64,000 bases of DNA, from assembly GCA_028714855.1 (NCBI GenBank), contig JAQTLP010000001.1, positions 312,572 to 376,571 of the forward strand. Reading direction: 5' to 3'. Source of the stretch: Phycisphaerae bacterium (GTDB lineage: Bacteria; Planctomycetota; Phycisphaerae; Sedimentisphaerales; Anaerobacaceae). The notes under the pieces are model-generated. The model had not been told where the DNA came from and searched no databases. It saw nothing but the letters and a program-made list of their open reading frames with translations. Below, piece by piece: positions 36,240-55,780 of the stretch (the stretch's first letter is position 1; each line of letters begins with the position of its first letter). The position numbers were made by a program, and so were the translations under genes.

Positions 36240-37139
36240 ATGCCGAGCCATAACTTAGCGTATATCAAAATAGATGAGCTGGAAATCCTCGGCTATTCGG
36301 TCGCCGCCGAGGAGACCGTCGTCGCGATGCCGCAGTTGGACGTTTGCTTCGACATCGGCAAGGCCCCTGACCAGGTTATTCCCATAAACAATGTCTTGCT
36401 CACGCACGGGCATATGGACCACGCCGCCGGCATTGCGTATTATCTGTCCCACCGGAATTTTTGCGGCCAGTCGCCGGGAACGATTTTGGCCCCGGAGAAT
36501 CTGCTGGGCCCGATGAGAGAAGTTATAGATGCCTGGTCTCGCCTGGACGGTAATAAAATACCTGCTAACCTTGTTGGCGTGAAACCAGGCGATGAGTTCC
36601 AGATAAAGCCGAATCTCTTCACGAGGGTATTTCCAACAAAGCACAGCAGGGGTTCTGTCGGCTATTGCGTAATTGAAAAGCGAAAAAAAATTAAACCAGA
36701 ATACGCCGCCCTTACTGCCCCGCAAATCGTCGAGTTAAAAAAGCAGGGCGTTGAAATCGACTATCCCCTTGAGATTCCAATCGTTACTTACCTCGGGGAC
36801 ACCCAGTACGTCGATTTCTCCCAGCTCAATTACGTCGCCGACAGCAAAATACTTATCGCCGAGTGCACCTTCTATATCGACGAGCACGCCGACAGGGCGC
36901 TGGCGGGCCGCCATATGCATATCGCCGAGTTCGCCCAGTTAGTCAGCAAGCTCAACAATCAGCATATTATTATCACTCACACCACGCAGCGGACTCCTAT
37001 GAGCGAAATCCGCAGGATGCTTAAGGAGACTCTGCCCGCCGGCATATACCGGAAGATTATTCTGCTGATGGACAGAATGCCAAAACAGCCTCGCAGGCTT
37101 TTGTACAAACCTGATGTGCAACGCCAGAGCGGCAATTGA
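36240..37139 (+). CDS. RNase Z-like metallo-beta-lactamase fold hydrolase
   Basis: 299 residues. The MBL metal motif is LTHGHMDHAAGIAYYLSHR near residue 49 (HxHxDH), with downstream metal ligands in FPTKHSRGSVGYC, a conserved VTYLGDTQYVDF Asp, and the histidine of IIITHTTQRTPMSEIRRML. This pattern is that of RNase Z and related long-chain hydrolases; the classic RNase Z flexible arm is not obvious. A role in tRNA 3' processing is possible but not secure. No ribosome binding site is visible before the ATG, so translation may be weak or leaderless. Confidence 0.75.
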   Translation: MPSHNLAYIKIDELEILGYSVAAEETVVAMPQLDVCFDIGKAPDQVIPINNVLLTHGHMDHAAGIAYYLSHRNFCGQSPGTILAPENLLGPMREVIDAWSRLDGNKIPANLVGVKPGDEFQIKPNLFTRVFPTKHSRGSVGYCVIEKRKKIKPEYAALTAPQIVELKKQGVEIDYPLEIPIVTYLGDTQYVDFSQLNYVADSKILIAECTFYIDEHADRALAGRHMHIAEFAQLVSKLNNQHIIITHTTQRTPMSEIRRMLKETLPAGIYRKIILLMDRMPKQPRRLLYKPDVQRQSGN

Positions 37140-37564: not shown

Positions 37565-38902
37565 ATGTTCCGGAAACGTTTTCTGCTATGTGTTTTTGTC
37601 GCGGTCTTAACGCAGTGGGTATCCATAGCCATAGCTGCCAGTCTGAATGTGGCGTTGTATCCCTATGTACCGCGCATTAAACAGTTCAGAACTGTTATAG
37701 AAGATGCTTGGAAGCAGGTTGAGCCCGATGTGCCAATCGTCTGGGTCGACGGTTGGGATGGCGGCTATAACAATAACCCGCAGGACAGTTACGACCTGTT
37801 TGTTTTCGATGCTACCTACCTTACCTATTTCAAAAATCAGGGCTGGCTTATGGGCCTGAATCAGGCTCAGGTTGACAATTTTGCCGATTTTCTGCCCTTT
37901 GCTAGGAACGGTGTACTTAAGGAGGATAAAGTCTGGGCCATTCCGCAGTTAGGCTGCACAGAGTACCTGATCTACAGAGGAAGCGACCAGTCTTTAACCA
38001 GCTCCGTTACTATGACCGAAGTCATTGCTGCCCTTACAAGATGTACCTACCACGCGGATACACCGCCGCCGACAGTTGGGTTGATGATTGACCTTTCCGG
38101 CGGTACGACAAATGCCATCAGTTATGTGAAGAGTCTGGAGGTGATAAACAATACCTTTCCGGTGCCACTGCCGGCCGGCACGGGTGATGTTAATATGACC
38201 GCTATGCGTAACCTGCGCACCATCTTGGCGACAGCCAGTCTGCGTAACGCCTGGTTCTCCGGCGGCGATGACTATCAGCGTGGACTTTGGTACGGCCAGA
38301 ATCACGGCCGTGCCTATGTAGGTTTTTCCGAATCTTTGACGCGAATCCCTTCAGGGCAATTGCCCGCCCTGGCGATGAAGGTTATGCCCTGGGCCGACAA
38401 CATAGCAGGTTTGCAGCACCCTCTCTTTTACTGCGATGCCATTGCTGTGAATCCGAAGACCTCACAGCGAGGAACCACTGACCTTGCCGTCAAGCTGGCA
38501 AATCTTATGGCCTCTGCCCCGGTCATTGTAAATTGCTTCAAGGCCCAGGGATCCGATGGGCCCCAGTATCTCACCCCGGTTCGCGCCACCGCTATGATGC
38601 AGCTTGCCTCTATGTATCCTATGTATGTCTCCATAAAGGCCGCCGTGGAAGCTGCAGGAGAACCAATCCTGCTTGATTTGGGCCCGAATGCAAAAACTTG
38701 GCTTGCCAGCATGAAAGACCCCATTAAGCACATGGTTATCGACGAACTGCAATGCTACTGTGACAAAACGGCTGGCCCTCCTATGGATAATGCAAAGGCC
38801 CAGACCGTTTGCCCGGGAGTGTGCGGCAGTGATAATTGGAATGGTCAGTGGACTAACATAGGCGACCATTCTGTTTGCGGTTGTTTCTGCGGACTTCATT
38901 GA
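37565..38902 (+). CDS. Secreted thiaminase I with C-terminal MVL-like mannan-binding domain
   Basis: 445 residues with a signal peptide (LLCVFVAVLTQWVSIAIAA, cleaved near residue 25). The body has the periplasmic-binding-protein fold of thiaminase I, which displaces the thiazolium of thiamine with an external nucleophile. The catalytic cysteine is Cys131 in AIPQLGCTEYLIYRG, matching the known QILCTNLLFYR motif. The general base corresponds to Glu256 in YVGFSESLTR. LMIDLSGGTTNAISYV and PLFYCDAIAVN are further family segments. The last about 43 residues (AGPPMDNAKAQTVCPGVC and WNGQWTNIGDHSVCGC) match the MVL mannan-binding lectin repeat in its cysteine-rich bacterial form. This fusion suggests an enzyme held on mannan or another glycan outside the cell. 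Confidence 0.85.
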   Translation: MFRKRFLLCVFVAVLTQWVSIAIAASLNVALYPYVPRIKQFRTVIEDAWKQVEPDVPIVWVDGWDGGYNNNPQDSYDLFVFDATYLTYFKNQGWLMGLNQAQVDNFADFLPFARNGVLKEDKVWAIPQLGCTEYLIYRGSDQSLTSSVTMTEVIAALTRCTYHADTPPPTVGLMIDLSGGTTNAISYVKSLEVINNTFPVPLPAGTGDVNMTAMRNLRTILATASLRNAWFSGGDDYQRGLWYGQNHGRAYVGFSESLTRIPSGQLPALAMKVMPWADNIAGLQHPLFYCDAIAVNPKTSQRGTTDLAVKLANLMASAPVIVNCFKAQGSDGPQYLTPVRATAMMQLASMYPMYVSIKAAVEAAGEPILLDLGPNAKTWLASMKDPIKHMVIDELQCYCDKTAGPPMDNAKAQTVCPGVCGSDNWNGQWTNIGDHSVCGCFCGLH

Positions 38903-39034: not shown

Positions 39035-40828
39035 CTATTTTTTATTTCTTCCAGCAGCTTCAATATCGGCCTGCTTCTTCAGGGCTATTCCCAGATTGTT
39101 AATCGCCGCCGGATTGTCAGGTTTAAGCCTAAGTGACTCATTGTAGTTTCGAATCGCAGGCTCATATTTGCCAATTAGCAGATATGCCAGCGCCAAGTCG
39201 TTGTATGCATCAGGCCAGTTAGGTTTCAGACGCAGAGCAGCTTCGAATAGCGGGACAGACTTTTCATACTCACCCTTTCGGGCGTAGCTTACTCCCAGAA
39301 GATATTGTACATCGGGATAGTCAGGTACAGTCCTCACCATCTCGGTAAACCAGGTGATTGCTTCGTTAAATTTCCCTTGTTCGAGAAGAACTTTTCCCTT
39401 GTGGCTGAGGGCCTTTAAGTACTCCGGATTAATTTGCAGCGACTTGTCAAACTGCTTGGCTGCTTCGTCGAGTTGGCCTGCGTTAAGCAGTTCCACTCCA
39501 TAGTTGTCGTGCATTATGAAATTCTTTTCTGTCACCGCAAGGGTATGACCGAATAGCGTGCTGCTGTTCTGCCAGTAGCTTACTTGTTTGTGGGTACATA
39601 TCATTAATATAGCAAGCACTATCCCCGCTGCTGTTCCCATCGCGAGTTTCTGATATCGCCTTTTGGCCAAAAGTTCACCTGCGCCCCACGCAGCCATAAT
39701 AAAAATCCCTATCGACGGTAAATATGTATAACGGTCAGCCATTGCCTGTGCCCCCACTTGGACCAGCCCGATTACCGGCACTAAAGTTCCGAGATACCAC
39801 AGCCATCCCGTTGCCAGATATCGTTGCCGTCGGGCAAGATAAATTACTCCTGCTGTTATAGCTGCCAGTAACACAAAACAAACTATCGGCTCCCACTTCG
39901 GCAGGCTGTCGGTCGGATGGGGATACAAAACCGCCAATCGCTTCGGATAAACCGTCTTAACCATATAGCTGACATAAGAAACAAGGGCGTTTGATATGCG
40001 GACATTTAAAGGGGCGGTCGTTATGCGAATGCTCGCGGGGACTGCTGCCGATATTTCTGTCGGCTTTCCCTTTTGTTGAACAGCGAAGGTAATTACGCTC
40101 AGAATCACTGCAAGAGCAAACAGAGGAATCTTTTCTTTGATTAGACTCCCGAGAGATGCCTTTTGGTAGCCGGCTTTTGCTGACTTGGATTTTGGCGAAA
40201 TTCCCCCCTTGCTTTGGAACCTGTCCAGCGGCCACCAGTCAAGCAGAAGCAGTACAAAAGGCAGAGTCGCTGTCATTGGTTTCGACATTAGACCCAGACA
40301 AAGAAATAGAACTGCCAATAAATACTTTTTTATATCCGGTCGTTTTGCGTATCGCACGTAAGCGGCTATAGTCAGCATCCAGAAAAACCCGCTCAACACG
40401 TCCTTGCGTTCAGCTATCCATGCGACGGATTCAACATGCAGCGGATGCAAAGCGAAAACCGCTGCTACAAATGCGCTTTGCCAAATTCCCCCTGTCATCT
40501 TTTTCAAAATCCAGAATAACAGCAAGGTATTTGCTATATGAAAGAACAGATTGACTATGTGATGCCCCGCTGGCTTCAGCCCGAAAACCTGACAGTCCAG
40601 CATATGACTCAGCCACGTTAATGGGTGCCAGTTATTGCAGTAGCCGGTGGTAAATGCCCAGATAATTGAATTGCCACTTATGCCCTTATTAACATTTGGG
40701 TTCTCGGTAACATATAAATCATCATCATAGTTGACAAACCCGTTTAGGCGCACCTGCTCATACGCAATAAGCGTCGATGCAGCGAGTGCTAAGCTTATAA
40801 AAAACAAAACCTTTTTTTGCTTAATCAT
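39035..40828 (-). CDS. Polytopic GT-C-like protein with C-terminal TPR repeats (TMTC type)
   Basis: 597 residues. The first 400 residues are about 10 membrane helices, with the acidic motif VNYDDDLYVTENPNV in the first loop, HPLTWLSHMLDCQVFGL, and VFALHPLHVESVAWIAERKD, all matching TMTC-type O-mannosyltransferase-like proteins. From about residue 430, three to four TPR motifs (AAKQFDKSLQINPEYLKAL and EKSVPLFEAALRLKPNWPDAYN) follow. These proteins glycosylate exported proteins or polymers in eukaryotes; the bacterial substrates are unknown. It is the second of a tandem pair, 8 bases after 40837-43074. Confidence 0.85.
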   Translation of the reverse strand: MIKQKKVLFFISLALAASTLIAYEQVRLNGFVNYDDDLYVTENPNVNKGISGNSIIWAFTTGYCNNWHPLTWLSHMLDCQVFGLKPAGHHIVNLFFHIANTLLLFWILKKMTGGIWQSAFVAAVFALHPLHVESVAWIAERKDVLSGFFWMLTIAAYVRYAKRPDIKKYLLAVLFLCLGLMSKPMTATLPFVLLLLDWWPLDRFQSKGGISPKSKSAKAGYQKASLGSLIKEKIPLFALAVILSVITFAVQQKGKPTEISAAVPASIRITTAPLNVRISNALVSYVSYMVKTVYPKRLAVLYPHPTDSLPKWEPIVCFVLLAAITAGVIYLARRQRYLATGWLWYLGTLVPVIGLVQVGAQAMADRYTYLPSIGIFIMAAWGAGELLAKRRYQKLAMGTAAGIVLAILMICTHKQVSYWQNSSTLFGHTLAVTEKNFIMHDNYGVELLNAGQLDEAAKQFDKSLQINPEYLKALSHKGKVLLEQGKFNEAITWFTEMVRTVPDYPDVQYLLGVSYARKGEYEKSVPLFEAALRLKPNWPDAYNDLALAYLLIGKYEPAIRNYNESLRLKPDNPAAINNLGIALKKQADIEAAGRNKK

Positions 40829-40836
40829 TTTACCCT

Positions 40837-43074
40837 TTATTTTTGCTGATACGGCTGGCCTGCTTTATAAAGCTCCAGCCGCTTTTGAATCTCATCTGCC
40901 AGCTCTTTTTTACCGCCGGCCTCGGCCGACTTGACCGCTTTCTCTGCGGTTTCTGCTGCCTCGTTGAATTTCCCCGCCGAAGCATAAGCAGCGGCTAACG
41001 TGTCCAGCAATTCGGCTTGCTCATATTTGGTAAGCTCGCAGGCATGTTGAGCAAGTTTTATAGCTTCAGCCGAATTCGCGATGCTCGTATCTTTCGTGGT
41101 TGCCAAAAACCAGCCGAGATTATTAAGCGCATCAATATTGTCTGGTTCTAATTGCAGTATCTTGTAGTAGTGCCCGATGGCCGGCAAAACTTGGCCCGCT
41201 TCGAGCAGAATACGGGCAAGACTGACTCGTGCCTCAACGTAGTTGGGGTCTAACCTTAGCGCCTCGGCGAATTGCTCAGCCGCCTGCTTGCGTTTGCCTT
41301 GCCGGATATAAACACCGCCGAGCTCATAGTGTGCCTCGGCCCACCCCGGTCGTATCCGCAAAGCTTCCTTAAGATGATTAACAGCGTCATCGTATTTTCC
41401 CTGCTCGGCCATCGCCACGCCCAGATTGTAATGAGGGTTGGCGAAATCAGGCTGCAGTTGCAGCGCCCTTTCCCATTGTTTTATTGCTTCATCGATTTTG
41501 CCCTGCTTTTTCAGGGCCGAGCCGAGATTATTTATGGCCTTGACATAATCCGGCTGTAGTCTCAATGCCTCCTTGTAGTGTCCGATGGCCATGTCAAGAT
41601 TGCCTTTTTCAGCATAAGCCAAACCTAAATCGCTGTGCACCTTGTATACTTTATCGCTGGTTTTAAGTGACTCTGTAAAACACACAATAGCTTCGTCAAT
41701 CTTTCCCAGATTGAGAAACGCTAAGCCGAGATTATAGCGCGCTTCAAAGTCTTCCGGCCTCAGCTTCAGTGCTTCTTTAAGGTGTGTGATAGATTCCTCA
41801 AACTGCCCCTTTTCGAGCAGCGCGTTCCCGTAGTTAGTTTGCATAACCTGATTATCTTCCGTCACCTCAAGCGCGCGTCCGAATAGAGTTAGACTGTTTT
41901 GCCAGTAGTGCATCTGCGTTCGGGTACAAATCAGCATCGCAACGAGTATTACGCTTGCTGTTATTCCGAGCACTGCATTTCGATATCGCCATTTTGCGGT
42001 AAGCTCGGCTGCTCCCCAGCTCACCATAATAAAGATTCCAATCAGTGGCAGGTAAGTATAGCGGTCGGCCATCGCTTGTAAGCCGACCTGGACCAGGCCG
42101 ACGACAGGTACTAAAGTTCCGAGATACCATAGCCAGCCGACCGCGAGATAACGTCGTCGCCTGCCCATATAAATCACAATCGTCGATATGACCGTTAACA
42201 TCACGGCAGAAACTATCGGTTGCCAAATCTGTAGTTTAAGCGGATGGGGATAAAAAACCGCCAGCCCGCTTGGGTAAATCATCTTGCCTATGTAGTTGAT
42301 ATAAGAAACAAGGGCGTTGGTTGTGCGGATAGTTACAGGTAATAAATCTGCCCCGGCCATAGCTCCTGTCCGTTGTTGAACAATGTATGTAACTAAACTT
42401 GATACTGCCGCGAGTGCAAACAATGGTATTTTTTCCGCAATCAAACGGCCCCACTTGCCCCGGCCTAAAGGCCACCAGTCCAGCAGAAGCAGAACAAATG
42501 GTAATGTCACCACCATTGGCTTGGATAATAGTCCCAGACTAAATGCCAGAACTACCGGCAGGTATCTTTTTATGCTGGGCTGTTCCGCATACCGCACGTA
42601 AGCTATCATAGTGAGCATCCAGAAAAAACTGCTCAATACGTCTTTGCGTTCAGCCGCCCACGCGACAGATTCAACGTGCAGCGGATGCAAAGCAAAAACC
42701 GCGGCCACGAAGGCGCTTTGCCAAATCGCCCCCGTCATCCTTTTTAAAACCCAGAACAGCAGCAAAGTATTCGCGATGTGAAAAAGTAGATTAATTATGT
42801 GATGCCCTGTGGGATTCAGCCCGAAAAGCCGGCAGTCCAGCATATGGCTAAGCCACGTCAGCGGGTGCCAGTTGTAAGCGTAAGGTGTGGTAAATGCCCA
42901 GCGGATTGACTCACTGGTTATTCCCCCGGTAACATTCGGGTTTTCAGTAACGTATGAATAGTCGTCATAGCCGACGAAGTCATTGTATCGAACTTGCTCA
43001 TAAGCTATAACGGTGGTCAGGACTAATACCACGCAAATTAGAATGGCATAAAGTTTGTTGCGCTCTTGCTTCAT
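40837..43074 (-). CDS. Polytopic GT-C-like protein with TPR array, paralogue
   Basis: 745 residues. The membrane half has the same motifs as its neighbour (VGYDDYSYVTENPNV, HPLTWLSHMLDCRLFGL, FALHPLHVESVAWAAERKD), and the C-terminal 330 residues hold about eight TPR repeats (for example EAIVCFTESLKTSDKVYKV and DAVNHLKEALRIRPGWAEAH). The longer TPR array distinguishes it from 39035-40828. The membrane part is too similar to be independent, so the pair is a tandem duplication. It follows the nucleotide-sugar dehydrogenase gene by 24 bases, suggesting a shared operon and a glycan role. Confidence 0.85.
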   Translation of the reverse strand: MKQERNKLYAILICVVLVLTTVIAYEQVRYNDFVGYDDYSYVTENPNVTGGITSESIRWAFTTPYAYNWHPLTWLSHMLDCRLFGLNPTGHHIINLLFHIANTLLLFWVLKRMTGAIWQSAFVAAVFALHPLHVESVAWAAERKDVLSSFFWMLTMIAYVRYAEQPSIKRYLPVVLAFSLGLLSKPMVVTLPFVLLLLDWWPLGRGKWGRLIAEKIPLFALAAVSSLVTYIVQQRTGAMAGADLLPVTIRTTNALVSYINYIGKMIYPSGLAVFYPHPLKLQIWQPIVSAVMLTVISTIVIYMGRRRRYLAVGWLWYLGTLVPVVGLVQVGLQAMADRYTYLPLIGIFIMVSWGAAELTAKWRYRNAVLGITASVILVAMLICTRTQMHYWQNSLTLFGRALEVTEDNQVMQTNYGNALLEKGQFEESITHLKEALKLRPEDFEARYNLGLAFLNLGKIDEAIVCFTESLKTSDKVYKVHSDLGLAYAEKGNLDMAIGHYKEALRLQPDYVKAINNLGSALKKQGKIDEAIKQWERALQLQPDFANPHYNLGVAMAEQGKYDDAVNHLKEALRIRPGWAEAHYELGGVYIRQGKRKQAAEQFAEALRLDPNYVEARVSLARILLEAGQVLPAIGHYYKILQLEPDNIDALNNLGWFLATTKDTSIANSAEAIKLAQHACELTKYEQAELLDTLAAAYASAGKFNEAAETAEKAVKSAEAGGKKELADEIQKRLELYKAGQPYQQK

Positions 43075-43098: not shown

Positions 43099-44742
43099 TT
43101 AGCCCACTGCTTTTCTTCTCACTTCTTTTTTGATTCGCTGGATATGTCCCCGGCCTAAGGCTTTTACTTCGCAGCCGAGTTCAAAATACCGCCGGATTTT
43201 CTCGTCGTCCAGTATGCCGAAACAGTCAATCACCGCTAAAGGTGCGCCTGCCCATTTAACTATCTTCTCCGGGTCGAGCTGCAAATATGGCTCGTGCCCG
43301 ACAGCAAGTATAATTGCTTGGGCGCCCTTAAGCGCAGATGCAAGGTCGTGCTGAACGCGGATATTAACCAGCTCGTCCTGATTGCGGAAGAATCTTGCCA
43401 GCGAGTGTCCTGCTGACGGATATGTCTCCTGACTTTCCAGCTCATACCAGTGTTCGAGATATGGGTCGTGCACTCGCATCTCTGCTCCCATCTCGGTCAG
43501 CTTACGAACGATTATTTCCGACCCGCTGTAGCGGGTGTCGGCAACGTCCTGCCGGTAGCTGGCCCCGCACAAAAGTATGCGCGCTCCCGCTACCTGCCGG
43601 CCTATATTCCGAAGCGCGTCTCTCGCCAATGTCGCTGCGCGAAGGCCGCGGGTGTCGTTGATATCGATTGCCATCGGTGTTATCTTGAATATATCGTCAT
43701 TGAAGCCGAGTATGTGTTTGTATGCCCAGTATCCTAAGCCGCCGTCTTTCGGCAGGCAGTACCCCCCGACGCCGGGCCCCGGAAATATCATGTTGCTGTG
43801 TGTTGGCCGGACCTTAATTGCATTTATGACCTTAATCAGGTCAACGCCGTTGCGCTCGGCAAACAAACTCCACTCGTCGAGAAATGCCAGTGTCGTCGCA
43901 CGATAGGAATTTTCGACAATCTTTGTGGTCTCTGATTCGATCGGCCGGTCCATAACTGTCAGCGGAAATTTCTCTGTGTTGAGTACTTCCCGCAGAAATT
44001 TTTCGACGCGTTTTCTCGCTTCCGCGTTGCAGCCGGAACAAACCCGCCAGAAATCCCGTATCGATGAAACGTAATTCCTGCCCGGCATCACCCTCTCGAA
44101 GCTGTGCGCCAGAAGCGGCTCCGACTTTATGCCGCGCGCCGCAAATGCCTTCTTCATAATCGGCCAGGCCACGAACTCCGTCGTCCCGGGCGCAACAGTC
44201 GTCTCAATCAGTGTCAGGCATTTTGCCGACACCTTTTCGCTGATGGTTTTTATTGTCGCCTCCAGCGCGGCCATTTCCGTCCTGCCGGTCCGCATGTTGC
44301 CGAGGTCGTTCTTTGTATAATCGCACTGAACGTCCACCACCACGCAGTCCGCAAGTGTCAGGCAGTCGTCGTTGTAGGTGGCTACGAGCGTCTTCTTCTC
44401 CAGCACGCAGCGCTTTATCATCGGCTCGACCTCAGGGTCTTCCGCTTTCACAGGTGACAGCCCTTTGTTAAGCATCGGAATCTTCCAGTAGCTTCGTGGA
44501 CTGGGACGCTGACAGCCGATGACAAACTTAGAGGCCTTGCCGCTTTTCTTATCGACGGTATCGGCGACAATTGCCGCCATCACCGCGCCGACAAAACCGA
44601 CGCCCATCACTACGACGACTTCTTTGCCTTCGTCGCGCGCCGCCTTTGCCATGGACTCTATGCGTTTAAACTCTTTGACGTATTCGCCCTTTTCAGGCAG
44701 GGCAAACTTTTTACCTTCCGGACTTACTGAATGGTCGCTCAT
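43099..44742 (-). CDS. UDP-sugar 6-dehydrogenase, long form (WbpA/WecC-like)
   Basis: 547 residues, about 110 longer than usual. The NAD-binding motif VVVVMGVGFVGAVMAA is at about residue 42. The catalytic cysteine is in FPGPGVGGYCLPKDGGLGYWA near residue 320, the UDP-glucose/GDP-mannose dehydrogenase signature. TLIETTVAPGTTE, ENSYRATTLAFLDEW and LLCGASYRQDVADTRYSGSEII complete the family. The fold favours the WbpA/WecC branch that oxidises UDP-HexNAc to the uronate, so it is a candidate supplier of UDP-GlcNAcA for the WbpB-WbpE pathway at 7492-10300. The extra residues are mainly at the N-terminus (about 35) and in loops. Confidence 0.85.
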   Translation of the reverse strand: MSDHSVSPEGKKFALPEKGEYVKEFKRIESMAKAARDEGKEVVVVMGVGFVGAVMAAIVADTVDKKSGKASKFVIGCQRPSPRSYWKIPMLNKGLSPVKAEDPEVEPMIKRCVLEKKTLVATYNDDCLTLADCVVVDVQCDYTKNDLGNMRTGRTEMAALEATIKTISEKVSAKCLTLIETTVAPGTTEFVAWPIMKKAFAARGIKSEPLLAHSFERVMPGRNYVSSIRDFWRVCSGCNAEARKRVEKFLREVLNTEKFPLTVMDRPIESETTKIVENSYRATTLAFLDEWSLFAERNGVDLIKVINAIKVRPTHSNMIFPGPGVGGYCLPKDGGLGYWAYKHILGFNDDIFKITPMAIDINDTRGLRAATLARDALRNIGRQVAGARILLCGASYRQDVADTRYSGSEIIVRKLTEMGAEMRVHDPYLEHWYELESQETYPSAGHSLARFFRNQDELVNIRVQHDLASALKGAQAIILAVGHEPYLQLDPEKIVKWAGAPLAVIDCFGILDDEKIRRYFELGCEVKALGRGHIQRIKKEVRRKAVG

Positions 44743-44973: not shown

Positions 44974-47631
44974 ATGAGGAAGTTGGCATTTTCCGTGGTT
45001 TTCTTGGTAGGTTTGGGGGCGGCATTTCTAATTTCAGTTCCAATTGCATTTGCTGACCCGAATCTTATCGGCTGGTGGAACTTCGATGACGGCGGCGGCG
45101 ATATCGCCGGCGACTCAAGCGGCAACGGCTACGACGGCACACTTGTCGGCGGCCCGACTTGGATTGCCGAGGGCAGCGGATATGATGGAAGCGGGTTTCT
45201 TGATTTTGACGGGACGGACGACTACGTCGATGTCAATTATGTCTCTGAAGATGCCTTTTTACTTCCGCGATACACGGTATCGATGTGGTTTCGTCGGGAT
45301 ACGGACAATGATGAGCGAAGCGTCTTTTCGCTTTTTAGACCCAACGCGGAGGGAAACTGGGACGACGCATGGCATGGAATGCTGATATCGCTTAACCGCG
45401 ACGAGGCAGGCAGGATCCGTTATTCTCATCTGTTTCCTTTTGCGGCGGGTGGTGCCGCGGGCAGCACTTATAGTATTTATAGCACGCCCTACACATACGG
45501 CATCGGCCAGTGGCATCACATAGCAGCGGTAAGAGATTCAAATAACAGCAGATTGCTGTACGTTGACGGGGAAGAAGTGGGTTCAAATACACAGGACGTG
45601 GGTGCGTTTGATGAGCCGTTACGGCTATTCATTGGAGCAATAAGACCAGGTTACTTGAAAGCATGGGACGGTGCAATAGATGATGTCCGAATCTATAACC
45701 GCTCATTGTCACAGACCGAGATATTGCAGGTAATGAATAAGATTTTCATTATTGAAGGCACGCCGGTCACGGTGCCCGAAGGTTATATCGGATGGTTCCA
45801 TATATCTCTTGCTTGGGAACCGGATGAGCCGGTAGAAGTTTCTGTGGCTCCCCTTTCAGGTGATACTGATATTACTGTCCTCTATGGCTCGACTCTGCAT
45901 TTCGACTCAACCAATTACGCTGTGCCGCAATCGGTTATCCTTGTTGCAGCGGAAGATGATGATTATCTTAATGAGACAGCCGTTATCCGGGTAAGTGCAG
46001 TTGGTTATATTTCTGTTGATGTCGCCGCCATTGAAGCTGACAACGACCCAGTCCCGCCGGTTATTTATGTCGATGACGATGCCGATGGCGCCGATGATGG
46101 CTCAAGCTGGCATGATGCGTTCAATTATCTGCAGGATGCCTTGTATGCTGCGGCAAATACCGGCGGTGAAGCCAACAACATCAGGGTCGCTCAGGGTACA
46201 TACGAGCCCGACCGCGGACAACACCAAACACCCGGCGATAGAACCGCCTCATTTGATTTGCAGTCTGGCGTAACCTTATATGGCGGCTTTGCCGGCCTTG
46301 GAATGCCCGACCCTAATGTCCGAGAACCGAATTTATACCAGACAATCCTCAGTGGCGACCTCGACGCTAACGATGTTTATGTAAACGACCCACGTGATTT
46401 AATTACTGAGCCGACAAGAGCCGAAAATAGCTACCACGTTGTAGTCAGCAGTTACTCCGATGCAACGGCTGTCATCGACGGCTTTACCATAACTGGTGGA
46501 AACGCCATGACCTCGTGGCCCTATGGCCATGGCGGCGGAATGTTCTGCTATTATAATGCAAATTGCACGGTCAATAACTGTACTTTTCTTGAGAACACCT
46601 CAAGATTCGGTGGAGGACTGGCTGGCAATTCAGGGTGCGATTATTTGCGCGTAACTGACTGCACCTTCTTACGAAACGCAGCAAGCAATAACGGCGGCGG
46701 GATAGATTTATATCAATCGCACTATGTGGTGCTGGCCGATTGCTCATTCATCGGAAACGTTGGCATCAGCACCGGCGCAGGTGGGATGTCAATTATTAAT
46801 TCGAGTTCCCCGACACTAACCAACTGCATATTCGGCGAAAACTCGGCAGATGGCTACGCTGGTGGGATATTCAACAACGGCAGCAGCCCAACACTAACCA
46901 ACTGCATATTCAGCGACAACTCGGCTCTCAATGGTGGTGGAGGTGGGATGTACAACGGCTACTACAGCAGCCCCACGTTGACCAACTGCACTTTCAGCGG
47001 GAACTCGGCGAATACCGAAGGCGGCGGAATGGTCAACGACTACTACAGCAACCCGAATATAACCAACTGCATACTCTGGGGCAATACCGCTCCAGCCGGG
47101 GCGCAGATATATAATATTGAGACAAGCTTTTCAGCTGTTACTTTTTCCGATGTTCAGGGCGGCTTCCCCGGCCTTGGCAATATCGATGCCGACCCCTGCT
47201 TTGTTGACCCTGCCAATGGTGATTATCATCTAAAGAGCGAGGGCTGGAGTTGGGACGCCGAACGCGACCGCTGGACCTATGATGATGTCACTAGCCGCTG
47301 CATCGACGCCGGCAATCCCGGCTCACCGCTCGGCGATGAGTCCCTTTCTGTCCCCGATGACCCGAACAATATCTGGGGACAAAATCTTCGCATCGATATG
47401 GGCGCCTTCGGCGGAACAGCCGAAGCTTCCATCCCGCCCTATGATTGGGCGATGCTTGCTGACTTGACTAACGATGGCCTTGTTGACTTGATTGATTTCG
47501 CCTATCAGGCCGCCGACTGGCTCAATTCCGCCGACAGCCAGCCGGGTGACCTCAGTCGCGATAGCTTGATTGGTATGGATGACCTTGCTTTGCTTGTCGA
47601 GGACTGGCTCACCCAAACCTCCTGGCATTAA
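44974..47631 (+). CDS. Secreted LamG / beta-helix protein with dockerin-like C-terminal tail
   Basis: 885 residues with a signal peptide (LAFSVVFLVGLGAAFLISVP). A LamG/concanavalin-like domain (residues about 30-235; DPNLIGWWNFDDGGGDIAGD and then SQTEILQVMN) comes first, then a beta-sandwich region (about 250-350), and a right-handed beta-helix with repeats of the pattern SSPTLTNCIFSDNSALNGGGG typical of pectin-lyase-like folds. The C-terminus (LTNDGLVDLIDFAYQAADWL and LSRDSLIGMDDLALLVEDWL) is a pair of EF-hand-like calcium loops, a dockerin-type module typical of Phycisphaerae. An extracellular or cell-surface carbohydrate-related role is inferred. Confidence 0.85.
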   Translation: MRKLAFSVVFLVGLGAAFLISVPIAFADPNLIGWWNFDDGGGDIAGDSSGNGYDGTLVGGPTWIAEGSGYDGSGFLDFDGTDDYVDVNYVSEDAFLLPRYTVSMWFRRDTDNDERSVFSLFRPNAEGNWDDAWHGMLISLNRDEAGRIRYSHLFPFAAGGAAGSTYSIYSTPYTYGIGQWHHIAAVRDSNNSRLLYVDGEEVGSNTQDVGAFDEPLRLFIGAIRPGYLKAWDGAIDDVRIYNRSLSQTEILQVMNKIFIIEGTPVTVPEGYIGWFHISLAWEPDEPVEVSVAPLSGDTDITVLYGSTLHFDSTNYAVPQSVILVAAEDDDYLNETAVIRVSAVGYISVDVAAIEADNDPVPPVIYVDDDADGADDGSSWHDAFNYLQDALYAAANTGGEANNIRVAQGTYEPDRGQHQTPGDRTASFDLQSGVTLYGGFAGLGMPDPNVREPNLYQTILSGDLDANDVYVNDPRDLITEPTRAENSYHVVVSSYSDATAVIDGFTITGGNAMTSWPYGHGGGMFCYYNANCTVNNCTFLENTSRFGGGLAGNSGCDYLRVTDCTFLRNAASNNGGGIDLYQSHYVVLADCSFIGNVGISTGAGGMSIINSSSPTLTNCIFGENSADGYAGGIFNNGSSPTLTNCIFSDNSALNGGGGGMYNGYYSSPTLTNCTFSGNSANTEGGGMVNDYYSNPNITNCILWGNTAPAGAQIYNIETSFSAVTFSDVQGGFPGLGNIDADPCFVDPANGDYHLKSEGWSWDAERDRWTYDDVTSRCIDAGNPGSPLGDESLSVPDDPNNIWGQNLRIDMGAFGGTAEASIPPYDWAMLADLTNDGLVDLIDFAYQAADWLNSADSQPGDLSRDSLIGMDDLALLVEDWLTQTSWH

Positions 47632-47855: not shown

Positions 47856-48479
47856 ATGACGCCTTTTTCGAAAAACCAGACCGACGCCGAACTGTTCGCT
47901 CGCTTCTCTGCCGGCGAGGAAGCCGCGTTTCGTGAAATCGTAAATCGTTACAAAAACGGCCTTTATGCGTTTCTGCGCCATTTTATAAACCGCCAGGACC
48001 TCATCGAAGACGTCTTTCAGGAGACCTTCTTACAGCTATTCACCAGCCGGGAAAGTTTCGACTCCGACCGGCCTCTGCGCCCCTGGCTGTTCACTATCGC
48101 CGCGAATAAAGCGAAGGATGCCCTTCGCAAACAGCAGCGAACGCCCACCGCCACAATAGGGACCTTCGCCGATGCCCAGGAAATGTCGTTCGATGACGTC
48201 CTGGACAGCCTTACTTCCGACAGCACAAAGCCTTATGAAAAATTGGAGGATGGCGAAGTTGCCTCGCAGGTCAGACAGGTTATAGCGGATATGCCGGAAA
48301 ACCTGCGGGAAATTTTGATTTTAGCCTATTTTAACCAATTTTCTTACAAACAAATGGCTGACGTCTTAAGTATACCTATTGGAACAGTTAAAAGCAGGTT
48401 GCACACAGCCGTTGGACGGTTCTCTAAAGACTGGAAAACAGCTTTTAGGAGCAAAAAACCAGATGACCGAGCTAAATAA
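47856..48479 (+). CDS. ECF-type RNA polymerase sigma factor
   Basis: 207 residues. Region 2 is in AAFREIVNRYKNGLYAFLRHF and RQDLIEDVFQETFLQLFTSR, region 4 in LREILILAYFNQFSYKQMADV and SIPIGTVKSRLHTAVGR. No region 3 is present, as expected for an ECF factor. Its 3' end overlaps the start of the membrane-anchored partner gene at 48463 by 17 bases, so the partner is probably its anti-sigma regulator. The operon sits between the arms of an inverted repeat. Confidence 0.93.
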   Translation: MTPFSKNQTDAELFARFSAGEEAAFREIVNRYKNGLYAFLRHFINRQDLIEDVFQETFLQLFTSRESFDSDRPLRPWLFTIAANKAKDALRKQQRTPTATIGTFADAQEMSFDDVLDSLTSDSTKPYEKLEDGEVASQVRQVIADMPENLREILILAYFNQFSYKQMADVLSIPIGTVKSRLHTAVGRFSKDWKTAFRSKKPDDRAK

Positions 48480-51240: not shown

Positions 51241-52935
51241 TCAGGGACCAATCCAGATCTGTGTCATCTTTTTAACCAATTCCTCGCCACGAGCGATGAT
51301 TTCGCCTTCCGTCCATTGGGAATATTTTGTCAATTCACTAGTTATGGTAACCTCCGAGACAGAATAATAATTTCTGCACTTTTCAGCAAATCCTTTGTTT
51401 TTAGCATCATTGTTAAGTTTCGTACCTAAAATAGTTAAATTGCCAATTTTCCAAGCGAAGGGCGCAAGGTTTTTACGATTAGGCCAATCACCACCAGCAT
51501 TGAGCGGGAAAATATGCTCAAGATTTACTCTATCAAACCCTATCTCCTTTGTTTCACTTTGCATTGCCTTTGCGAGATTAGTCATAAGCCAAATAGCCTG
51601 CTTTCTATTTAGCTCTACATCTTTTGCATTTTCTTGGACTGTGGCATCTTGTGGATTTATTCTGGCCAATATATCTTTTGCAGCTGAAAGGCATTTTGCG
51701 CTTCTCTCTTTTGTCGACTTTTTTCCTCGTAATTCGCGTGCAGCTGCGTAAAGTGCTGTCTCAAGATCGGACGGATTCAAATTTGAGAGTACCGAGTGAC
51801 GGATGAAAAGGGCAATGATTGATTCTGACAATTTAACAAAATCGTTGTCGTTAAGACAAGCTAAACCGGCCAATAATAAAGGAAAGCTTGAAGTTGCGTT
51901 CAGGTTTTTCACTAAACCTTCTACAGACTCACGAGCATCTTTTGGGATATCGTTATCAATATCGAGAATGGAAATATAATTATCGCACTCTTGGGCGCAC
52001 ATTTCTGCAAAAGACAGACTTTCGATTCCTTGGCTGATTAGATGGTTTTTCATCTCAGCAAACAATCCTCTGGCCTTAAGATCTCCATACATGGAAAGCC
52101 ACATGTGCCGCAGGAAACGAGAAATATCTCTGCGACCCATTTGTTGCAACATATAGTTCCATCTTTCCCTAACTCGGTCACGATTGCCTTGGTTACCAGC
52201 CTTTTGCATAAGTAAATTTAGCAATAAATCAGGGACGGATAATCGTAAACCACGATCGTTCAGTGTTTCAAAAATACTATAGGCATCTTCCTCTGACTGA
52301 ACAACGATGGCGACCATGTTCATTCCTTTTGTCAAGCAGTCACGAAGACCTTTTAAAATCTGTATGGATTCTATAAGTGGCTTATCTTTTACTAAGTACG
52401 CAACCTTATCATATAAAAATTTGTATGCAGACTGAATTAAGTGGTGTGATCTAAGTGTAGGAGTAAGATTTATGGGGGAATCCAGTTTAACCGTCTGCAT
52501 AAAAAATGTCTCGTCTAGTTCTCCAAGATTAAGCGAGTATTGCACTGGTAAGGTATCTTCCTTCTCGACAAACTCCCGTTGTATATCTCTCGCCAAGTCT
52601 GCTCCTGTGTGGTTGGAACTATCGTCGAGTTGTCTTGCTATGTCACGTAGGCAAGACAGTAAAATGGTCGCAGTAGCAAGTCTTTGTTGGCCGTCTAGTA
52701 GGGTGATTGTCTGGTCTTCTTCTTGCAGTACGATGGGGCCTAGAAAGTAGGTTGCAGAGACACGATCTGCATCAAACAAACCTTTGAAGACAAGAAGATC
52801 ATCCCAAAAAGTTGCAATCTGGCTATTCTCCCAGCTAAATCCTCGCTGGAAACGTGGAAGGACGACACTCCGTCGTTCATTATTTCCTAATAACGAGCCG
52901 ATCGTTGCAGGACGAGGAACAAAACTGTTGCCCAT
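51241..52935 (-). CDS. GmrSD-like DUF262/DUF1524 protein (possible type IV restriction enzyme)
   Basis: 564 residues. The N-terminal DUF262 domain has LPRFQRGFSWENSQIATFWDD and the NTP-binding LLDGQQRLATATILL (DGQQR, near residue 80). The C-terminal DUF1524 HNH nuclease is marked by LEHIFPLNAGGDW (histidine at 474) and FAWKIGNLTILGTKLNND. Both are found in GmrSD-type enzymes that cut glucosylated or otherwise modified DNA, and in related anti-phage systems such as SspE and BrxU. Length and domain order fit a single-chain version. The start has GAGGTGAG 2 bases upstream. It is next to the 49998 gene in an AT-richer island and beside repeat-rich DNA, which suggests horizontal acquisition. Target unknown. 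Confidence 0.85.
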   Translation of the reverse strand: MGNSFVPRPATIGSLLGNNERRSVVLPRFQRGFSWENSQIATFWDDLLVFKGLFDADRVSATYFLGPIVLQEEDQTITLLDGQQRLATATILLSCLRDIARQLDDSSNHTGADLARDIQREFVEKEDTLPVQYSLNLGELDETFFMQTVKLDSPINLTPTLRSHHLIQSAYKFLYDKVAYLVKDKPLIESIQILKGLRDCLTKGMNMVAIVVQSEEDAYSIFETLNDRGLRLSVPDLLLNLLMQKAGNQGNRDRVRERWNYMLQQMGRRDISRFLRHMWLSMYGDLKARGLFAEMKNHLISQGIESLSFAEMCAQECDNYISILDIDNDIPKDARESVEGLVKNLNATSSFPLLLAGLACLNDNDFVKLSESIIALFIRHSVLSNLNPSDLETALYAAARELRGKKSTKERSAKCLSAAKDILARINPQDATVQENAKDVELNRKQAIWLMTNLAKAMQSETKEIGFDRVNLEHIFPLNAGGDWPNRKNLAPFAWKIGNLTILGTKLNNDAKNKGFAEKCRNYYSVSEVTITSELTKYSQWTEGEIIARGEELVKKMTQIWIGP

Positions 52936-53617: not shown

Positions 53618-55780
53618 TCAAGGATTAGAAAGTTTTGGTGTGGATAATCTTTCGAGGGCTTGTTTGGCATGTATGTTTTGCGGGTCCAGGGAGAGGACTT
53701 TTCGATAGGTCGTGACAGCATCATCAGTTTTGCCTTGCTTTTCAAAACATACCGCCAGGTTGCAGTATATGCCGGCATCGTTGGGCGAGATTCGCAGGGC
53801 CTTGTTATAGCTAATGACAGCTTCCTGAAACTTTCCCAAGCCGGCAAGGGCATTAGCCAGATTGTTCAGCGTCTCGGCGTCCTCTTTTAAGCTAAGCGAT
53901 ATCTCGTAATGCTCAACAGCCTGGCTTAATTGGCCCTGCATGACAAAGGCGTTGCCGATGTTGTTTTGCGATGCGGAATCGTTCGGGTCAAGCTCGATGG
54001 ATTTGAGATAGTACTGCATCGCTTCCGGTATGCGTTTGAGGAAGAAGAAAGCGGTGCCGAGCTTATCATAAGCGGTTGCACTATCAGGGGCGATTTCGAT
54101 AGCTTTGCGGTAAAGCTCAATAGCATCGTTGCTCTTTCCCTGTTTGAAAAGGGCCTCGCCGAGGCCTTCGTATAGAGAGGCATTATTCGGGTCGAATTTG
54201 AGAGCGGTGCGGTAGTGCTCGACGGCGTCATTGAGACTGCCTGCCTTTACCAACAGTATGGCCAGATTCTGGTGAGCCTCGACGTAGTCGTTTCTTAGAG
54301 TAACGGCCCTGGAATAAGCGTCGACGGCTTCGGCGGTATGGCCGTGCTTATCGAGTGAGTCCGCCAGGCCATAATATAATTCCGGTTCGTAGTCGAGCTG
54401 CTCGGCGTAGAAGGGGCCGGCGAGGCTGGTTGATATCGCGACGGTCAAGACGATAGCCAGAGCGGCAGTTAATTTTGTCCAATTTCGGAACTGAAAGAGG
54501 CGCCATATAGCGGCGCAGCCCGCGGCGGCGAGGACTGCTATGAGGGGGATTGCCGGGGTGCGGTAGCGCGAGGTGACAAAGACTAATATTACAGAGGCTG
54601 GGTAAAGAATGAGGAACAGCCATACCGGCGCGGGGACTTTCCGCCAATTGAAAATCAATCCAATGACAGCGAGGGGCAAGAGGACGCCGAAGGGGAAACC
54701 AAATTTGCCCGATTTCCAGAGGCCGATATTCAGGAGCGGGGACCATTTTCTGAAAAGGTAGATATCGAAATTTCGGGGCGTCTCACGGGAGCTTAAGAAC
54801 TGGGCTGATTTGTAGAACAAGCCTTTGAGGAAACCTGCCGGCTGAGTGCGTATGTAGTTGAGAAGTTTATCGGAGAAGAATTTCTCGTCTTCGAACCTGT
54901 TTTTTGCGCCGTGTTCGGCGGGCAGTTTTGTAAGTTTTTCCCAGGCCAGTCCGGGCCTGATATTGATAGTTTCTTTATAGTCAGGATTATTGCCGATATA
55001 AAGATTGATACCGCCAGAAAAGGGGAGGAAGCTTGCCTTGCCAACGGTGCGGTAACTTAAGAAAGCCACCGGGGCGGCGATTGTAAAGAAACCGGCGAGC
55101 AGGAGCGAGAGACAGGGGACAATCTTTTTCGGATTTGTGCGGCGGCGAATCCAGACGAGCAGCAGCCAAATAAACGCTGCCGCAGAGAACGGGAGAAACT
55201 CGGGTCTTGTGATAATACTAAGGGCCGCGAATAATCCCAGAGCGAAACAGGAACGGAGAGTTGGTTTTTCGGCGGTTTTAATCAGGGCGAGCATCAGAGT
55301 CAGTACCCAGAACGCAGACCAGCCGGCCGCTAAAAGCTCACCATCGTAAAAGACGAGGGGCATATATAAGGCCACAAAAACGCCTGACAATACACCAACA
55401 GATTTATCGAAAAGCTTTTTGCCGAGGAAATACGCGAGGACGGATGTCAGTGAGCCAAGAAGCGCCTGAACAATCTTTACGGCGAGGATTGACGAATTTG
55501 TCAATTTGTAAATCAATGCGAGGAAGAGAGGATAAAACGGGGGCTGCCAGAAGAACTCCTGCGTCAGCGAACCGGTTTTAGTCAGGCCTGCGGCCATCTG
55601 GTCATACGTGAGCGAATCCACTATAGGCGCGGAGAAAGTCGGATTGTCGCTGCTGTCATAGAGGTAAACTGCCCTGACAAGAGCCGCCAAGAGGAATATC
55701 TTCAGAGCGACTTTAAATTCCCGCGACGATATGATTTTCCCGTGCGGTTTGCTTGTATGTTTTTTAGATATTTTGCTCAT
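53618..55780 (-). CDS. GT39-type glycosyltransferase fused to TPR repeats
   Basis: 720 residues. The N-terminal about 430 residues are membrane helices with the PMT-like first loop SAPIVDSLTYDQMAAGLT and an FWQPPFYPLFLALIYKL segment. The C-terminus holds about seven TPR repeats (for example EAVDAYSRAVTLRNDYVEAH and DAIELYRKAIEIAPDSATAY). It resembles the pair at 39035 and 40837 in architecture, but the membrane half is of the GT39/ArnT branch rather than the TMTC form. The transferred sugar and acceptor are unknown. The last residues (NPKLSTP-like) lie just before the REP-like region. Confidence 0.85.
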   Translation of the reverse strand: MSKISKKHTSKPHGKIISSREFKVALKIFLLAALVRAVYLYDSSDNPTFSAPIVDSLTYDQMAAGLTKTGSLTQEFFWQPPFYPLFLALIYKLTNSSILAVKIVQALLGSLTSVLAYFLGKKLFDKSVGVLSGVFVALYMPLVFYDGELLAAGWSAFWVLTLMLALIKTAEKPTLRSCFALGLFAALSIITRPEFLPFSAAAFIWLLLVWIRRRTNPKKIVPCLSLLLAGFFTIAAPVAFLSYRTVGKASFLPFSGGINLYIGNNPDYKETINIRPGLAWEKLTKLPAEHGAKNRFEDEKFFSDKLLNYIRTQPAGFLKGLFYKSAQFLSSRETPRNFDIYLFRKWSPLLNIGLWKSGKFGFPFGVLLPLAVIGLIFNWRKVPAPVWLFLILYPASVILVFVTSRYRTPAIPLIAVLAAAGCAAIWRLFQFRNWTKLTAALAIVLTVAISTSLAGPFYAEQLDYEPELYYGLADSLDKHGHTAEAVDAYSRAVTLRNDYVEAHQNLAILLVKAGSLNDAVEHYRTALKFDPNNASLYEGLGEALFKQGKSNDAIELYRKAIEIAPDSATAYDKLGTAFFFLKRIPEAMQYYLKSIELDPNDSASQNNIGNAFVMQGQLSQAVEHYEISLSLKEDAETLNNLANALAGLGKFQEAVISYNKALRISPNDAGIYCNLAVCFEKQGKTDDAVTTYRKVLSLDPQNIHAKQALERLSTPKLSNP

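Follow-up and report, generated by a model that had tools for sequence, protein, structure and literature searches.

A predicted exported thiaminase I carrying a cysteine-rich MVL-like module in a Phycisphaerae bacterium

Gene organization of the locus

The open reading frame at positions 37565-38902 of the window (the whole stretch of 64,000 nucleotides that was analysed) encodes a protein of 445 amino acids and has an AGGAG-like sequence 5' of its ATG start. The source genome consists of 2.31 Mb in 19 contigs and is 98% complete. The following features could be assigned to the gene and its neighbours, L004 being the corresponding locus of a second species of the genus:

37565..38902, + strand: whole gene, predicted exported thiaminase I that ends in an MVL-like module (ORF of 445 aa; family profiles; homologue L004:8001-9335)
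37565..37639, + strand: Sec-type signal peptide, about residues 1-25, without lipobox (read by eye)
37640..38722, + strand: thiaminase I catalytic body, residues 26-386 (TIGR04541 23-381; 2THI alignment 26-386)
37955..37957, + strand: codon of Cys131, predicted catalytic nucleophile, equivalent to Cys113 of 2THI (2THI alignment)
38330..38332, + strand: codon of Glu256, predicted catalytic base, equivalent to Glu241 of 2THI (2THI alignment)
38747..38899, + strand: cysteine-rich MVL-like module, about residues 395-445 (PF12151, 1ZHQ, shuffling control, dN/dS)
36240..37139, + strand: metallo-beta-lactamase-fold hydrolase, upstream neighbour, adjoining the fusion gene in L004 too; no functional part is claimed
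43099..44742, - strand: UDP-glucose/GDP-mannose dehydrogenase family gene, downstream; no functional part is claimed

The signal peptide proposed in the first-pass annotation was recognized by eye in both species as Sec-type, with RKR, a hydrophobic stretch and AIA-A. As the host is diderm, this predicted signal implies passage of the inner membrane only.

In L004 the dehydrogenase gene lies directly downstream of the fusion gene, while here two TPR/PMT_2 genes intervene (39035-40828 and 40837-43074, both on the - strand), which are not found at that place in L004. Together with 53618-55780 (- strand) they encode three related membrane proteins in which TPR repeats come after a PMT_2 mannosyltransferase-type domain. 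At 44974-47631 (+ strand) lies the gene of a large protein that combines beta-helix repeats with a concanavalin A-like (Laminin_G_3) domain; the gene of an ECF-type sigma factor comes next, at 47856-48479. A GmrSD-type restriction protein with both its N and C domains is encoded at 51241-52935 (- strand). No thiamine or bacimethrin genes were found among the scanned neighbours of the thiaminase gene. An Rfam scan of the window returned no element, and thus no TPP riboswitch could be assigned to this gene.

Thiaminase I body

Profile and structure-based searches confirmed the earlier identification of the protein body as thiaminase I. With TIGR04541 (NCBIfam, thiamine pyridinylase, EC 2.5.1.2) the protein scored 305.9 bits (3.8e-91; model positions 26-381 of 381), exceeding the curated equivalog cut-off of 175 over the full model, and Pfam PF22141 (Thiaminase-1) was matched with E=5.7e-31. 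Sequence matches in the PDB covered residues 25-386, with E-values of 6.6e-58 for 2THI, about 1e-57 for the group 2THI/3THI/4THI and 4e-48 for 4KYS. In the alignment with 2THI, Cys131 and Glu256 fall on Cys113 and Glu241. Asp82, Asp291, Tyr32, Tyr34, Tyr68 and Tyr237 of the active site are also kept and Phe254 replaces Tyr239; the aligned Asp and Tyr positions line the active site in the 2THI structure. Homology to the enzymes of Paenibacillus thiaminolyticus (2THI) and Clostridium botulinum (BcmE, 4KYS) is full-length, at 34% and 30% identity respectively, with the catalytic Cys and Glu and the active-site Tyr and Asp residues in common; unlike the 37565-38902 protein, neither chain was matched by an MVL module. 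Judged from these similarities, the product very probably has thiaminase activity, i.e. base-exchange cleavage.

Twenty-four weak, partial matches to the thiaminase model elsewhere in the phylum (20-36 bits) were set aside as apparently ordinary solute-binding proteins, by score and extent alone. On the Bradyrhizobium japonicum plasmid p1S06B (NZ_CP066352.1), the product of L053:3860-5158 is annotated as extracellular solute-binding protein and retains Cys, Glu and Asp at the thiaminase I positions. Its TIGR04541 score of 109.6 bits falls short of the cut-off of 175, and its Pfam Thiaminase-1 score is 30.6 bits against a cut-off of 27. The protein may be a divergent thiaminase I that goes by a different name.

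C-terminal MVL-like module

The last residues of the protein had been likened to the repeat of the Microcystis viridis lectin MVL, and this relationship held, at a borderline score in the whole protein. There PF12151 (MVL) matched residues 409-440 over its full model (1-36) with 23.1 bits (E=7.4e-5; cut-off 25). The isolated C-terminal 53 residues reached 26.5 bits and the genome scan 26.4, also borderline against the gathering cut-off of 25. The isolated tail further matched the MVL crystal sequence 1ZHQ at 8e-6, both MVL repeats being aligned through AGP..N..AQ and GQW. For control, both MVL repeats and a pair of modules from other planctomycete proteins were combined into an HMM that left out the 37565-38902 protein; the tail scored 25.0 bits with it, against a maximum of 11.1 in 5,000 shuffles. 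Based on the 1ZHQ match and the shuffling control, the kinship of the tail to MVL, although short, is judged to be real and not a product of chance. An origin of the tail by chance or read-through could be ruled out, as it lies in the same frame with no stop, is conserved in a second species and has a low dN/dS.

The AGP..N..AQ and GQW motifs and a core of about 36 residues are common to the tail and the lectin (PDB 1ZHQ/1ZHS). The lectin, however, is a homodimer of chains with two tandem 54-residue domains, whereas here one cysteine-rich repeat is attached to an enzyme; with a single repeat, the protein has the family module without the tandem two-domain arrangement that marks the lectin MVL, though not the Pfam family. 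Seven cysteines are located in the module (397, 399, 416, 420, 438, 440 and 442), compared to none in the aligned MVL repeats, and Met407 takes the place of a Trp present in both MVL repeats, the first Trp of the lectin. Ala410 stands at the position of Asp75 of the second MVL repeat (1ZHQ alignment), which we take to be the residue tied to chitotriose cleavage. Chitotriose-cleaving activity has been described for MVL (PMC8004682).

AlphaFold, run with a two-sequence alignment, gave a pLDDT of 36 for the whole protein, in which residues 396-441 formed strand-helix-strand-strand at a pLDDT of about 63-72, while the isolated module gave a helix only (pLDDT 57). A PDB fold search with the low-confidence whole-protein model (pLDDT 36) yielded no match.

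The tail is likely to bind a glycan containing mannose or GlcNAc. Specificity for mannan, as in the first-pass annotation, is something that we infer for a module with a single repeat and Trp replaced by Met. Met407 need not abolish binding, since the two planctomycete modules, putative binders themselves, also differ at this position, one having Trp and the other Arg.

These two modules are single, cysteine-bearing and located mid-protein, in proteins of about 410-440 aa with signal-peptide-like starts (L055:961-2196, - strand; L056:829-2157, + strand). They share the CP and SVC.C cysteines with the tail and score above the Pfam cut-off, but are embedded in unrelated proteins without other Pfam domain and not at the end of a thiaminase. 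Elsewhere in the phylum sample, MVL was found only as such single Cys-bearing modules, in two genomes of one genus. Matches in two further genomes (G463 and G587) were judged spurious, their frames overlapping or running antisense to other long ORFs. A plasmid search with the MVL tail gave chance-level matches only (best E=0.6), and no relative was found in the phage and viral collections.

Conservation and distribution of the fusion

The fusion of thiaminase and MVL-like module announced by the first-pass annotation is real: it is also present in Phycisphaerae bacterium STA_45 (G505, JAQTMR010000004.1), the nearest relative among the genomes compared and a second species of the genus, where the same gene precedes it. 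The homologous protein (L004:8001-9335) is 79% identical over the full length, tail included; the same STA_45 protein is present in both L004 and L030. All seven tail cysteines are kept in STA_45, and the AGP...N..AQ and W.GQW positions common to MVL are invariant between both fusion species, while the signal peptide is the least conserved part (52% identity). The dN/dS ratios between the two species (NG86, own script) were 0.157 for the enzyme and 0.089 for tail residues 387-445, the latter value resting on 58 codons and the gap between them not to be read as a significant difference. Both enzyme and tail are clearly under purifying selection.

The fusion gene is present in 2 of the 89 genomes of the family, this one and STA_45; the genome-contig scan, made with six short peptide patterns, reaches close relatives only, and the fusion may be more widely distributed. 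The gene is absent from the third genome of the genus, a fragmented assembly of 420 contigs with 89% completeness. One further thiaminase I was detected among 397 genomes of the class (G431, L031:1411-2649). It has no MVL module and carries a VAGC motif, and is a probable lipoprotein like the myxobacterial form. The simplest history would be that the MVL module was joined to the thiaminase in an ancestor of both species, the thiaminase itself being sporadic and perhaps horizontally acquired.

Thiamine metabolism of the host

The thiamine genes of the host were searched family by family. In the host genome, one TPP riboswitch is followed directly by ThiC and another precedes ThiG and ThiH, two genes identified from sequence; ThiE is present, while TenA was not found. 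With ThiC, ThiG/ThiH, ThiE and two TPP riboswitches, and no TenA, the organism probably makes its own thiamine.

In Paenibacillus, thiaminase I is encoded in a thiamine/bacimethrin operon under riboswitch control, and for the enzyme of P. thiaminolyticus salvage has been proposed as the role (PMC5627462). The genes of 2THI and 4KYS lie in thiamine or bacimethrin operons (PMC5627462), whereas 37565-38902 is outside any such operon and without riboswitch. Salvage has also been proposed for the thiaminase of Burkholderia thailandensis, according to passages of PMC10147936 and PMC10499793 that cite the proposal. A thiaminase I that myxobacteria export on outer-membrane vesicles holds back and starves the thiamine auxotroph Phytophthora sojae, most strongly on contact (PMC10499793). 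The myxobacterial proteins CcThi1 and MXAN_4523 are exported thiaminases I of a diderm that act outside the cell (PMC10499793), and the present protein likewise combines a diderm host with a predicted export signal. However, CcThi1 and MXAN_4523 are lipoproteins on outer-membrane vesicles, while the protein described here has an MVL module and a signal peptide not of lipoprotein type; the main text of PMC10499793 contains none of the words domain, mannan and lectin. The situation of the host is closer to that of the myxobacteria than to that of Paenibacillus.

Proposed mechanism and alternative explanations

The reading to which we give about an even chance is that of an exported thiaminase I held on a glycan by its MVL module and depleting thiamine locally. 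The Cys/Glu base-exchange mechanism is established for characterised thiaminases I. By the conserved residues, Cys131 activated by Glu256 would attack the pyrimidine of thiamine, forming a covalent Cys-pyrimidine intermediate with release of the thiazole, and the pyrimidine would be passed to an outside nucleophile. The protein would leave the cell, a step with less support than the catalytic ones. The single cysteine-rich MVL-type module added to this thiamine pyridinylase could anchor the protein to a glycan with mannose or GlcNAc, which would belong either to the cell's own envelope or extracellular polymer or to the surface of a neighbour such as a fungus, oomycete or alga. Free thiamine would be removed locally; starvation of thiamine-requiring neighbours is the most likely outcome, because the producer itself seems capable of thiamine synthesis.

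Three other explanations were weighed against this. That the protein is no enzyme and serves to bind thiamine or another ligand as a solute-binding protein is very improbable. Thiaminase I has the periplasmic-binding-protein fold, and the weak SBP_bac_1 match of the protein (25.7 bits, Pfam) reflects this shared binding-protein fold. The TIGR04541 score of 305.9 bits against a cut-off of 175 and the kept catalytic Cys and Glu speak against such a function, as does the comparison with the phylum's weak partial matches at only 20-36 bits. There is a smallish chance, somewhat above that given to salvage, that the tail is a disulphide-rich stabilising or protein-binding remnant of MVL descent without sugar binding, on an otherwise ordinary exported thiaminase I. 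The single repeat, the exchange of Trp for Met and the seven cysteines would fit this, and for MVL itself a protein-protein mode has been put forward (PMC11203576). Against it stand the invariance of the MVL-type positions in both species, the constraint on the module seen in its dN/dS, and the occurrence of single MVL modules with cysteines in further planctomycete proteins.

Salvage, suggested in the first-pass annotation as one of two roles, has lost ground and is rather unlikely. The exported enzyme would in that case split environmental thiamine or damaged analogues for uptake, the module merely keeping it on the producer's surface or polymer. The proposals for Paenibacillus thiaminolyticus (PMC5627462) and, in the citing passages of PMC10147936 and PMC10499793, for Burkholderia thailandensis speak for it, as does the presence of ThiE, and a self-bound enzyme would keep the products near the cell. 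Against this, ThiC and ThiG/ThiH supply both moieties de novo, no TenA was found in the genome, and the gene lacks the operon context and TPP riboswitch seen in Paenibacillus. The weights given to local depletion, salvage and a non-binding tail are rough judgements, and the last two could both hold. Between the two roles, competition by local depletion is the one that we would favour.

Significance of the fusion

The enzyme is of a known kind, while the combination of thiaminase I with MVL appears to be undescribed; among the open-licence papers searched, none contained 'thiaminase I' and 'mannan-binding' together. A conserved module of carbohydrate-binding type, in a host that apparently makes its own thiamine, hints at a particular surface as the place where the enzyme acts and favours local removal of thiamine over salvage. 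A more specific version, doubtful at present, is that the module delivers the enzyme to mannose or GlcNAc surfaces of thiamine-requiring eukaryotic microbes such as fungi, oomycetes and algae. If true, such a lectin-guided thiaminase, of which no description was found, would be an antagonistic device destroying thiamine at the surface of its target. The glycan bound by the module would give an indication of the partner or target of the enzyme.
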